A stretch of 64,000 nt of DNA from Norana najaformis (Eukaryota; Annelida; Clitellata; Crassiclitellata; Hormogastridae), in NCBI GenBank assembly GCA_964023275.1, contig OZ029914.1, forward strand, positions 45,764,437-45,828,436. The letters run 5' to 3'. Numbering within the stretch: the stretch's first letter is position 1; every line of letters begins with the position of its first letter. The translations under genes and the position numbers were made by a program. Positions 741 to 62,585 of the stretch are shown here, piece by piece. Under the pieces are notes generated by a model. That model was given only the letters and a program-made list of their open reading frames with translations, ran no database searches and was not told the origin of the DNA.

Positions 741-906
741 ATCAGCTGCCCAACCAACTCGAGTTTTCCTTCACAAGAATTTTCTGGACATTCATTACCT
801 GATCCCGTATCGATTCCATGGTGCAGCCAAGGACGAGTCAACTTTCGCACTAACCACGCTGTGGTCTCCAGTGGATTTAGCCTCGATTATTATGTCAGCG
901 TAGGAG
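741..906 (+). CDS. gene I exon: C-half of A-type CUB
   Basis: Opens in phase 0 after TACGACAG and ends in phase 1 before GTAAAG (166 nt). It reads ISCPTNSSF at the start and [12 protein letters not shown] at the end, with the fourth CUB cysteine in IPWCSQG. TNSS is an N-glycosylation sequon found in nearly every odd CUB of the array. Confidence 0.9.
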
Positions 907-61000: not shown

Positions 61001-62585
61001 AAGGTGCTTTACTTTTTAATGAAATAACATAGTCATAGGAACTACGAACGAGGACAGTAAATGTGTTCTTCGCAGACTACGCATCCTTTACCAGCCTGTT
61101 TTTCTGGTTCAAGTGATTAAAGTATTCCCTATGTATACACGTGCTTTTCTTGACAGGAGGTTTGAAGCTAAAGTCTCAGTAATACTAACAGATTCATGTC
61201 TGTATTTTGAAAGTTTCCTGATGTTGGAAAATGTGGTTAACTCATTTTCAAGGAAACGCTATATTGCTTCCCATTTTACAATCATTACTTTAGGTAGTTA
61301 AATCTTAGGAAAACAGTAACAAATACAGTCACTTAAATTTTCATTACATTAGCAATCCTTCATCTTACTAGGTTTCTACTACGAATAAGAAAACCCAAAC
61401 ATACTGTACTTATCAAGATGACTAAAAGTCCCGTGTTCATAGTGGAACTTGGTGAGGCATTCATTTCCTTTTCATCGGCCTTCGAGCCTGCGATAGTCGA
61501 ATTTCTAGGGCCATTACACGTGGCCAGTGCATCACAAGACTTGCTGTTTAATTCCAGCTCGTGCTGGTATAAAATTCTGCTGCTTAGTGACAGCGAAGCG
61601 CCAGTGAACAAACAATTTTTTATGTTTCGTTTATTGATCCCAGAAGAGAAATTTGGCAAAAATCAAAATACAAGTTTAACATAAAACATTGTTGGATTAC
61701 AGTGAAAAAGCGGTAGACCAAGAAGGGGCCATAGCCCCGCTTAATTAGGGCCACCAATTTGTATGCAAATACCCGTGGCGATCGAGCGCCTCTGGAGTGT
61801 ATATCGTTATAGATACAATTTAAATCTTAACTATAAAAATTATAAGGTGATAAATATGACCTACAGAACGACAAAAGAAAAAAGAAATTAAGCTTAACTG
61901 AAATATACAACACAATATAAATTACACTTGCGATTCATCATCCAAAAATTTACGCAGCTGTTGTTTAAATAACAGCAGAAAAGGCAACTGTTGAATATAT
62001 ATAGTGGCAATGCATTCCATATCAGCAGTCCAATGCATTTAATGCCAAAATACCTTGTATTTGTTCGAATATATACACTACTGAGTTTACTTTGCCATCT
62101 AATAGAGCAGGTATGAAATTTAGAGCAACGCAGAAAATAACCATCAAACACGAAGTCCGCTTAGGAGTCTCGAATCCATGCGCAATCTTTGGATTACAGA
62201 GCCATCGCTCTAATCAAATGGACCACCATGTCGCACATTCAAACCTCAGAATAGAGCATGCCTATAGAAATAGGTCAGAAATCAATCGGCTTGGGCCTTA
62301 ACCACTGGCGTTAATAAGTAGCAATATATGCCTGAATGACTCGCTGCGTTACACCGAAACTTCTTGTTTACGATATTGAAACATAATTTGATGAGTTGTG
62401 TCTTCATAGACTGTGGTAACACTTCTTATTACGGTCCGTCTGGAGTCATCAGTTCTCCCAACTACCCCATCTATTACTACGACAATCTGTACTGCGATTA
62501 CACCATTTACGCCTCATCGTCATCTAGTTCGATTGCCATTATTTTCCAAACGTTTAGCACTGAACGGAACTTCGATTACGTGACG
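51899..62585 (+). CDS. CUB-array gene IV, 5' part (partial, runs off the right edge)
   Basis: In-window join 51899-52070, 52855-53027, 54199-54364, 54987-55165, 55806-55974, 58170-58348, 58917-59082, 59537-59715, 60212-60371, 62410-62585 (1719 nt, 573 residues). Order: signal peptide, A, B, hybrid CUB (C-type N-half plus A-type C-half), B', then the N-half of a C-type CUB. By analogy with genes II and III its C-half should start a few hundred bases beyond 64000, followed by D and a tail. Phases agree throughout. The hybrid CUB marks a second unequal crossover, separate from that in gene III. A solo LTR lies in the B intron. Confidence 0.85.
52855..53027 (+). CDS. gene IV exon: N-half of A-type CUB
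   Basis: 173 nt between TGCTACAG and GTAAGT. It reads [27 protein letters not shown] and FNIENGCDFLT. The usual Tyr before the Asp is Cys, giving an extra cysteine. Confidence 0.92.
53140..53295 (+). mobile_element. LINE reverse-transcriptase end, remnant
   Basis: GGFSVAGPRIWNTLRR followed by TFAL and a short broken frame resembles the end of CR1/L2-type ORF2 (family motif SVAGPRLWNSLP). A homologous remnant is at 58590-58725 in the second A-type intron of gene IV. Confidence 0.6.
53466..53625. repeat. CTA/CTG trinucleotide microsatellite
   Basis: About 160 bases of imperfect (CTA)n with CTG interruptions at the left and ATT at the right. Long single-residue frames here are artefacts. Confidence 0.95.
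54199..54364 (+). CDS. gene IV exon: C-half of A-type CUB
   Basis: 166 nt between TACGACAG and GTAGGG. It starts ISCATNSSF and ends [12 protein letters not shown], with VPWCSQG. Asn stands in place of the third acidic ligand (FRTN). Confidence 0.93.
54987..55165 (+). CDS. gene IV exon: N-half of B-type CUB, cysteines lost
   Basis: 179 nt between ATTGTAG and GTAGGC. It reads [29 protein letters not shown] and GSCFSSDWLE. The CC-x-C cluster of other B-type CUBs is reduced to one cysteine. Confidence 0.92.
55177..55315 (-). repeat. SINE-like insert with TTACAA tail (minus orientation)
   Basis: TGTAATTGTAATTGTAATTTG, then GAAGCGCCTCTTAGAG and GAGGTGCTTCCGACCCG. It is the reverse orientation of the insert at 28600-28731 and shares the LINE 3' hairpin and tail. 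Confidence 0.55.
55425..55613 (+). repeat. tRNA-derived SINE, best copy in B introns
   Basis: The tRNA-like head at 55435-55505 has TCGGTCTATTCGGTAACGAG, a GGGTCTTTAATCCC stem and box-B-like GGGTTCGCGCC. The body has GGGGCAAAGTTGTCTCGCAG and the tail AATAAATCTAAATAAATA. Paralogous copies are at about 1660, 11990, 28440, 36790 and 59820. Confidence 0.65.
55806..55974 (+). CDS. gene IV exon: C-half of B-type CUB
   Basis: 169 nt, acceptor TTGTCCTAG, donor GTCTAT. It starts [29 protein letters not shown] (Asn for His) and RFNIQY (Arg for Gly) are changed from the family pattern. Confidence 0.9.
56050..56220. repeat. CATA microsatellite
   Basis: CATA/GCATGCAT runs after the B-type exon, followed by ATATTGTCAATCGTCATC as in the paralogs. 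Confidence 0.85.
56285..56842 (+). mobile_element. probable solo LTR
   Basis: GC-richer block of about 560 bases missing from the paralogous introns of genes I-III. It has about five imperfect ACCAGCCTT repeats (56380-56440), a TATA box (TATAAAAG, 56450-56457) and a polyadenylation signal (AATAAA, 56674-56679) in the spacing expected of an LTR. ATAC stands before it and again where host sequence resumes (about 56844). No internal retroelement genes are present. The exact ends and clade are uncertain. Confidence 0.55.
57700..57985 (-). repeat. tRNA-derived SINE upstream of C-type exon
   Basis: Same family and position as 13640-13955. The head (about 57902-57978) has TGAGTAGCGCGCTGGC and TCCAACGATTCGAG. 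The body has GGGACCAGTGCATCGC. Confidence 0.55.
58170..58348 (+). CDS. gene IV exon: C-type N-half of the hybrid CUB
   Basis: 179 nt, one codon longer than other C-type exons because the acceptor is now CACATAG before TTGGCTGC. It reads [20 protein letters not shown], then [14 protein letters not shown] and FNTEQDFDYVT. Donor GTTAGT. Its own C-type C-half is missing downstream. Confidence 0.9.
58441..58515 (+). pseudogene. leftover 3' part of an A-type N-half exon
   Basis: ATACCTCAACAGGAAGTTCG and TCATCTTCGTGTCGTTCCAC match the second half of A-type exons (compare 52948-53010), with deletions, and are followed by A-type intron sequence (GATTTTGTTGCAGGTTAGTTT). It marks the right edge of a recombination junction. 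Confidence 0.75.
58590..58725 (+). mobile_element. LINE end remnant, paralog of 53140-53295
   Basis: GGCGTGCCTTTTCTCTCGC and AACGTTCGCTCTATAAAG align with the remnant in the first A-type intron. It moved with the duplicated intron rather than inserting anew. Confidence 0.5.
58917..59082 (+). CDS. gene IV exon: A-type C-half of the hybrid CUB
   Basis: 166 nt between TGTGACAG and GTAGGG. It starts [16 protein letters not shown] and ends [12 protein letters not shown]. It is closest to the A-type C-half of gene II, not to C-type exons (which end DYHISLGG). Confidence 0.93.
59537..59715 (+). CDS. gene IV exon: N-half of second B-type CUB
   Basis: 179 nt between GAATGCAG and GTATAG. It reads [29 protein letters not shown] and ISCSYDWLE. 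The cysteine cluster is reduced, as in the first B-type CUB of this gene. Confidence 0.92.
59820..60030 (+). repeat. tRNA-derived SINE in B intron
   Basis: Contains ACATCGGCCTATTTGGGATC, GTGGGTTCGCGCCTGCTGAA, GGGGCAAACTTGTCTCACAG and an AAATAAATAAATAG tail. Same family and position as 55425-55613. Confidence 0.6.
60212..60371 (+). CDS. gene IV exon: C-half of second B-type CUB (short form)
   Basis: 160 nt, acceptor TTGTTTTAG, donor GTCGGT. It starts IKCLDSDFGPDRYCG with one codon lost from LDNSD, and ends NVNPG with two codons lost. [13 protein letters not shown] and GFNIQY remain. The nine lost bases keep the frame. Confidence 0.88.
60448..60500. repeat. CATA microsatellite (short)
   Basis: CATA and CATT runs in the usual place after an even CUB, followed by the conserved GTCAGCATATTTAGGTGC block. 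Confidence 0.8.
62150..62232 (-). repeat. tRNA-like SINE head upstream of C-type exon
   Basis: Minus-strand TTAGAGCGATGGCTCTGTAA and box-B-like GGATTCGAGAC. The body is displaced to about 61410-61600, with an insertion of unclear origin between. Confidence 0.5.
62410..62585 (+). CDS. gene IV exon: N-half of the next C-type CUB
   Basis: 176 nt between TCTTCATAG and GTCAGT. It reads [34 protein letters not shown] and FSTERNFDYVT. The matching C-half lies beyond the window; in gene II it starts about 1.1 kb after this exon, in gene III about 1.26 kb. Here the intron is lengthened by tandem repeats. Confidence 0.93.

Follow-up and report, generated by a model that had tools for sequence, protein, structure and literature searches.

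The DNA analysed here, hereafter the window, is a stretch of 64,000 nucleotides from the earthworm Norana najaformis (C2:45764437-45828436 of a 608-Mb, 17-contig genome) and holds part of a tandem cluster of genes whose predicted products are secreted arrays of CUB domains. Window coordinates are used throughout, negative numbers denoting positions to its left. Half-CUB profiles, built from four seed half-exons and run on six-frame, stop-to-stop open reading frames (ORFs), detected 16 exons for 5′ halves and 16 for 3′ halves of CUBs in the window, all on the plus strand between 741 and 62585 and in the order odd 5′ half, odd 3′ half, even 5′ half, even 3′ half; the sole minus-strand match in the window is a 19-residue fragment. 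Extending the window by 200 kb of neighbouring chromosome gives a region of 264 kb with 59 5′ halves and 59 3′ halves, i.e. 59 CUBs, again all on the plus strand. The odd CUBs comprise types A (15 copies) and C (15), the even ones types B (18) and D (11), and odd and even follow each other in 58 of 58 steps between neighbours. The original prediction for this DNA, two strictly alternating CUB subtypes, is thus borne out over the entire 264 kb.

The exon structure is equally regular across this region. An AG acceptor in phase 1 precedes 58 of the 59 5′ halves, which end at a phase-0 GT donor in 48 cases and at a phase-0 GC donor in the other 11, all of them type D. A phase-0 acceptor was found at every one of the 59 3′ halves, with an in-frame run to a phase-1 donor in 58. 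Only two of the 118 exons are damaged, both outside the window (a lost acceptor at -100204 and a 3′ half with a broken frame at -36070); apart from these, each CUB has the internal phase-0 intron and the phase-1 boundaries that had been claimed for it. The stop-to-stop ORF search, in which an exon with a central stop would surface as a partial match, showed no in-frame stop in any of the 118 half-CUB exons. Since both boundaries of a pair are in phase 1, its gain or loss would leave the reading frame unaffected, which makes the pair, with its four exons, the likely main unit gained and lost. The internal phase-0 intron, for its part, is not special to this family, because one CUB of a cubilin-like locus at C1:25.1 Mb (a name inferred by us) has one at the matching place as judged by eye; this locus accounts for 32 of 150 scored Pfam CUB matches in a hand count of the list. 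The GC donor is fixed in one paralogous exon type throughout the cluster, being present in all 11 5′ halves of type D (among them 16526/16527 and 44287/44288), and GC donors also end three predicted signal-peptide exons (at 7271, 52070 and 73472). An even-like CUB at C2:19.92 Mb (L032) has a GC donor as well.

On average, A and C CUBs are 65% identical and B and D CUBs 52%, against 32-41% for an odd with an even type (58 of the 59 CUBs, the frame-broken one excluded). In a tree of the 59 5′ halves, a branch with 100/100 support parts the odd from the even types, and in a tree of the 59 3′ halves the odd side and the even side both stand on 100/100 branches, each tree drawing on few columns and the 3′ tree carrying the program's long-branch warning. 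On account of these branches A groups with C and B with D, the clustering that a tree of half-CUB exons had been expected to yield. The individual types are less cleanly delimited: A does not form a single clade in either tree, nor does D in the 5′ tree. As to cysteines, the canonical CUB is described as having four conserved ones, paired C1-C2 and C3-C4 (PMC3100851, in excerpt). The CUBs of types A and C mostly have four or six, those of type B mostly eight and those of type D mostly six. The C1 and C2 cysteines are present in all four type consensus sequences and a cysteine stands just ahead of the calcium Asp in 43 of the 59 CUBs. Among the four type consensuses, that of B is the only one with the YCG cysteine, so the odd and D types would have to pair their cysteines otherwise. 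The acidic residues of the calcium site are, we presume, those named E45, D53 and D98 by C1s numbering. By motif position, the Asp before an aromatic residue (D53) is present in 59 of 59 CUBs and D98 in 53, the remaining six having Asn, while the upstream Glu (E45) is found in 37 of 59: 11 of 15 A, 14 of 15 C, 8 of 11 D and 4 of 18 B. Odd and even CUBs therefore do differ in cysteine number and calcium-site residues, as predicted, the Glu being scarce in B and the Asp common to both subtypes. One A, one B, one C and one D CUB of the gene unit called G8 below score 46.5-58.2 bits against PF00431, for which the cut-off is 21.4.

Ten similar exons, at -138776, -101077, -75696, -42619, -25168, -1210, 7109, 25006, 51899 and 73310, are predicted from hydrophobicity and similarity only to encode signal peptides. 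Three of them lie inside the window and each of the ten is followed by an A CUB, which supports the earlier proposal that the products are secreted. Cut at these exons, the order of types reads ABCDCDCD, ABABCDCD, ABCBCBCDCD, ABCD, ABABABAB, AB, ABCD, ABABCD, ABCBCD and ABC, and is known up to the last C, beyond which the sequence is unreadable. The ten units accordingly hold 2 to 10 CUBs (the end of the last being unreadable), in agreement with the claim that domain number varies. A-B comes first in ten of ten units and C-D last in seven.

Within the window lie part of G6, the CUB parts of G7 and G8 and most of G9, all on the plus strand. Their CUB exons were placed by profile matches and splice sites, and those of G7 to G9 are also joined in predicted spliced models. 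G6, whose predicted signal peptide (-1210) and A 5′ half (-317) are left of the window, contributes an A 3′ half (741-906) and both halves of a B CUB (1292-1470 and 1982-2150). The G7 model (7109-18626) encodes 517 amino acids (aa) with four CUBs and no stop. It begins with a predicted signal-peptide and Thr-rich exon that ends at a GC donor (7109-7271), followed by the two halves of A (7613-7785, 8436-8601), of B (9317-9495, 12376-12562, the latter 18 nt over the usual 169), of C (14129-14304, 15404-15569) and of D (16354-16526 with its GC donor, 18458-18626).

The G8 model (25006-45420; 746 aa, six CUBs, no stop) starts with a predicted signal-peptide and Ser/Thr-rich exon at 25006-25141. 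Its first A-B pair consists of the A halves at 26333-26505 and 27535-27700 and the B halves at 28104-28282 and 28915-29083. A predicted Thr/Ser/Pro linker exon of phase 1-1 follows at 33424-33468; it came from a linker scan, joins in frame and has two more acceptors within 6 nt. The second pair (A at 34702-34874 and 35793-35958, B at 36456-36634 and 37167-37335) is succeeded by C (41948-42123, 43382-43547) and D (44115-44287 with a GC donor, 45252-45420). Scanned against Pfam, G8 yields CUB as the sole family above the cut-off, in six stretches (E 3.5e-76).

In G9 (model 51899-66416; 757 aa, six CUBs, no stop), a predicted signal-peptide and Thr-rich exon with a GC donor (51899-52070) leads into A (52855-53027, 54199-54364) and B (54987-55165, 55806-55974). 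Next comes a linker exon predicted by the same scan and included in the spliced model, ETMHPSPASTSEP (57343-57381, phase 1-1, Thr/Ser/Pro), and then a CUB composed of a C-type 5′ half (58170-58348) and, by profile and tree, an A-type 3′ half (58917-59082). A further B CUB (59537-59715, 60212-60377, the latter with an alternative donor two codons earlier) and the 5′ half of a C CUB (62410-62585) complete the window, the 3′ half of this C and the next D CUB lying to its right.

Short phase-1/1 Thr/Ser/Pro linker exons are predicted between some pairs, the two just described being those in the window. The linker scan gave 58 rows on the plus strand versus 5 on the minus strand, the former including nested rows, rows in CUB exons, micro-exons and one signal-peptide exon. 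The micro-exons are a second source of such sequence. They are 75-nt, phase-1/1 exons, often about 240 bp apart, that code for mucin-like Pro/Thr/Ser repeats such as EVTSQATPTPPPTDTPSPPPSTIIP; they occur only left of the window (-130677 to -108951, -85185 to -83764, and -47281), between AB and CD and after CD, the window itself having just the short linkers. A 55-base micro-exon pattern matched 33 times on the plus strand, never on the minus strand and never in any of three shuffles, and a stricter scan that needed both splice sites gave 23 distinct micro-exons with 54-83% Thr/Ser/Pro (hand count), the two sets overlapping only partly. The copy at -47281, downstream of the final CUB of G3, reads into a stop codon, so that its Thr/Pro tail would end that gene.

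Another recurrent feature is a block conserved in seven gene units (48005-48401, 23080-23342 and near -104400, -79180, -46000, -29380 and 70080), which reaches a conservation of 0.93 over 60 columns and precedes the next signal-peptide exon by about 2-4 kb. After a first comparison it was considered as a hydrophobic exon, an idea that was rejected; because no frame is open in every copy on either strand, we read the block as non-coding, possibly a regulatory element or a 3′ untranslated region. The window also contains sequences of other kinds. A piece of a Tc1/mariner-type transposase (Pfam HTH_Tnp_Tc3_2) lies at 39655-40491 on the minus strand and a second was recognised by eye at about 38131-38800 on the same strand; an Rfam histone stem-loop match inside the latter (38139-38185, minus) is one bit over threshold and probably due to chance. 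An uncharacterised ORF, seen by eye in two copies at 30918-32657 and 9966-11551 (both minus), is 578 aa in one piece in one copy and split over two frames in the other; the two pieces scanned had no Pfam match, and it is probably a transposable element. Reverse-transcriptase-like fragments of non-LTR (long terminal repeat) elements, likewise noted by eye at 38436-39119 and 17253-17954 (both plus), gave no Pfam match above the cut-off.

How the array grows can be read from its most recent copies. The clearest recent duplication relates -73079 to -64633 and -68305 to -59870, which are 98.0% identical over 8,459 aligned bases and offset by 4,774 bp, each period containing one CUB pair. Another copy, 93.8% identical over 4,746 aligned bases and offset by 9,279 bp, includes one CD pair and spans micro-exons too. 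The two A-B pairs of G8, inside the window, match each other in part, at 86.2% identity over 914 bases. The pair is nevertheless not the sole unit of recombination. Inside the one G9 CUB already mentioned, the type changes from a C-type 5′ half to an A-type 3′ half (about 58172/58917), and the B 5′ halves at -68381 and -63609 start like D. Odd/even parity is kept in all these exchanges. Of the proposal that the odd-even pair is the mobile unit, the part that concerns duplication therefore stands, with the 98.0% copy and its one-pair period in its favour, and exclusivity falls to the exchange of half-CUBs.

Related arrays exist elsewhere in the genome. Among the 150 of 195 candidates that were scored in a genome-wide CUB search, the even subtype reaches at least 48% identity at just two loci, with 29 matches in this cluster and 8 at C2:37.93-38.20 Mb. 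The latter array is on the opposite strand some 7.5 Mb away, and a 5-kb sample of it (C2:38.09 Mb, L031) reads odd 5′ half, odd 3′ half, even 5′ half, even 3′ half, odd 5′ half. On the minus strand, the sole one searched there, two 9-kb samples from C2:36.65-36.68 Mb (L035, L036) show CUB exons of odd type and no others. The samples from C1:4.57 Mb and C2:19.9 Mb represent other CUB series with two unlike 5′ halves each, and the one from C6:0.77 Mb yet another series. In a tree of 5′ halves with 31 rows, the even CUBs of the cluster are joined first by the even CUB from the 38-Mb array (94/78) and then, at a deeper node, by a single row from C1:4.57 Mb and another from C2:19.9 Mb (96/91), and its odd CUBs form a group with those of the 36.65-Mb array (90/87). 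What speaks against a simple history of shared pairs is the odd CUB from the 38-Mb array, which falls outside the odd group on a long branch. Separately, the genome encodes an annelid extracellular-haemoglobin linker (E 8.1e-32), whose nearest match is linker chain L1 of 2gtl (E 1.7e-56), which we take to be the Lumbricus terrestris structure. Many weak matches to the C-terminal family of this linker at C5:34.4-36.9 Mb are possibly a different expanded family. The linker marks the genome as that of an annelid, probably an earthworm-like one. Searches for marks of other groups lent those groups no support: mollusc haemocyanin and GH6, a tunicate mark, had 0 matches, with silent controls as well, and C1q, considered as an expansion typical of bivalves, had 22.

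Coding constraint was assessed by the ratio of nonsynonymous to synonymous substitution rates (dN/dS) between copies of one type, for the same 58 CUBs as above. Median pairwise values are 0.34 for A, 0.41 for B, 0.36 for C and 0.43 for D, with median dS of 0.31-0.40, and the ratio exceeds 1 in only one of 402 usable pairs. These codon comparisons indicate that the CUBs are under purifying selection; the loop after the calcium-site Asp, compared separately as set out below, is the exception.

Taken together, we consider it reasonably probable that the cluster comprises at least ten genes for secreted, multivalent binding glycoproteins made of CUB pairs. Each gene would encode a signal peptide, usually a Thr/Ser-rich segment and then between one and five odd-even pairs; some pairs would be set apart by short Thr/Ser/Pro linker exons, and the genes left of the window would also hold mucin-like micro-exon arrays. 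The products would be extracellular chains of CUB pairs with O-glycans on their linkers. Their multivalent binding of ligands would probably depend on calcium and use the loop adjacent to the calcium site, the sequence of which varies between copies, and they might serve as agglutinins or cross-linkers of mucus, coelomic fluid or a reproductive secretion. The B CUB, with its changed calcium site and extra cysteines, may be a rigid spacer, leaving binding to A, C and D. Exon structure, intron phases, alternation, open frames, the one pair-sized duplication and purifying selection are read from the sequence itself; the signal peptides, linkers and splicing are predictions, and expression and such functions we infer.

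The role given to the loop draws on the ratio of nonsynonymous to synonymous differences (pN/pS) between the calcium Asp and the next GF, which is 1.11 versus 0.42 for the rest of the domain (four types together), a result that is not independent, as two calcium-side loops were tested after the peaks had been inspected; of 2,000 random window sets, 11 reach the pN/pS of the loop and none its pN. This choice after the fact counts against the favoured interpretation, and so do several other observations. The other calcium-side loop (L5) is unremarkable (pN/pS 0.32 vs 0.45), a ratio near 1 can equally mean relaxed constraint rather than diversifying selection, and the calcium-site Glu is absent from 14 of 18 B CUBs. 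No convincing terminal exon was found at the 3′ ends of G7 to G9, either by alignment downstream of five D CUBs or by a scan of nine intervals for Thr/Ser/Pro-rich exons with a stop, so the proteins may be attached to the membrane through a further 3′ exon; and longer transcripts might use the predicted signal-peptide exons as alternative starts.

Among other explanations, it is possible, if doubtful, that the proteins are a structural matrix, i.e. a scaffold of skin mucus, cocoon or burrow lining in which repeat number matters and loop variation is neutral drift. Drift would give just such a loop pN/pS near 1, mucin-like micro-exons and Thr-rich linkers would suit a scaffold, and high expression of mucin-like and CUB proteins is reported from the collar with which the annelid Paraescarpia forms its tube (PMC8476170, in excerpt), a finding that fits a secretory or matrix role. 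What such a scaffold would explain less well is the conservation of the CUB framework, with the calcium Asp in 59 of 59 copies, and presumably the upkeep of two CUB subtypes, for which a pure scaffold has no obvious need. Improbable, in our view, is a family of clitellar, seminal or gamete-coat secretions that diversifies through sexual conflict or the recognition of gametes: the large number of tandem copies and their variable loop would agree with it, as would the known part that CUB proteins such as spermadhesins play in reproduction, and yet the median dN/dS of 0.34-0.43, with a single pair above 1, speaks against it.

The number of genes itself could be questioned, given that a single strand and compatible phases would keep read-through from unit to unit in frame. 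That the locus is a single giant gene, or a handful of genes, read from alternative promoters rather than ten genes is all the same quite improbable, considering the ten separate signal-peptide exons with an A CUB after each, the mucin-like exon with its own stop at -47281 and the conserved, apparently non-coding block between units. Finally, a decaying array, mostly pseudogenes kept by recent duplication, is scarcely credible despite the damaged exons at -100204 and -36070, since the search showed no in-frame stop among the 118 and a median dS of 0.31-0.40 at a dN/dS of 0.34-0.43 makes the array too old for such intactness to be due to chance.

If the cluster does encode multivalent CUB-pair glycoproteins, one may speculate further that it constitutes a heritably variable recognition repertoire of the earthworm, in which the gain and loss of pairs, parity-keeping exchange of half-CUBs and loop diversification yield secreted, lectin-like agglutinins that vary within populations. 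This would be an annelid counterpart of DMBT1 or of the expanded defence families of molluscs and echinoderms, and we regard it as unlikely. Should microbes or gametes prove to be ligands of the proteins, it would be worth measuring in earthworms how copy number varies at the locus. Whatever their ligands, the genes offer a clean natural case of domain-pair exon shuffling in which two subtypes alternate strictly through many duplications despite the exchange of single exons. The kept alternation and the similar pairs some 7.5 Mb away point to a physical unit of two unequal CUBs, and the micro-exons illustrate a route by which a variable glycosylated stretch can be built from 75-nt exons. To the original prediction, the present analysis adds the signal-peptide and linker exons, the mucin-like micro-exons, the GC donors, the exchange within pairs, the clusters elsewhere in the genome and the occurrence of the internal phase-0 intron in a CUB of the cubilin-like locus. 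As judged from these predicted features, the family is one of secreted multi-CUB proteins with the two-subtype pair as their unit plus mucin-like exons.

With regard to known systems, the nearest solved relatives of these CUBs are those of cubilin and neuropilin. Cubilin, a multi-CUB endocytic receptor whose gene encodes about 27 CUBs behind N-terminal EGF repeats, shares the tandem arrangement; its structure 3kq4 is the solved one that matches best, at E 9.1e-21 with a D CUB and E 1.1e-28 with an A-B pair. The genes of the window differ from it in having four, six and six CUBs of two alternating subtypes, Thr-rich linkers, a separate locus and, by the Pfam scan of G8, no EGF. Neuropilin, PCPE-1 and C1r/C1s/MASP, whose CUBs were matched in the same structure searches, have two different CUBs in a fixed order; they contain other domains too (FV/VIII, NTR, EGF or protease) and are not known to multiply the pair. 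Spermadhesins are secreted and clustered in the genome, have a single CUB and are not known to carry linkers; compared with these and other small secreted CUB proteins, the genes described here have at least one pair each. The M02D8.5-like CUB families PF23060 and PF23062 gave weak matches (best E 1.8e-5 and 6.9e-4), under the Pfam cut-off in each match listed.

A CUB-pair family of this kind was not found described in the open-licence literature, and by its sequence it looks like a lineage-specific secreted family, not a system of a new kind. For its presumed mode of action, with linker-separated globular repeats, the closest known parallel is DMBT1, also called salivary agglutinin or gp340, which, according to an excerpt of PMC3100851, is secreted, contains CUBs and has globular repeats that are parted by Ser/Thr-rich, O-glycosylated segments of 20-24 residues and vary in number between alleles. 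The same excerpt gives SRCR as the repeat and lists a zona pellucida domain, whereas here the repeat is a CUB pair and the Pfam scan of G8, the model of which ends at the D CUB, returned neither SRCR nor zona pellucida. The best reading by analogy is that the CUB-pair proteins would work like DMBT1 without being members of its family.

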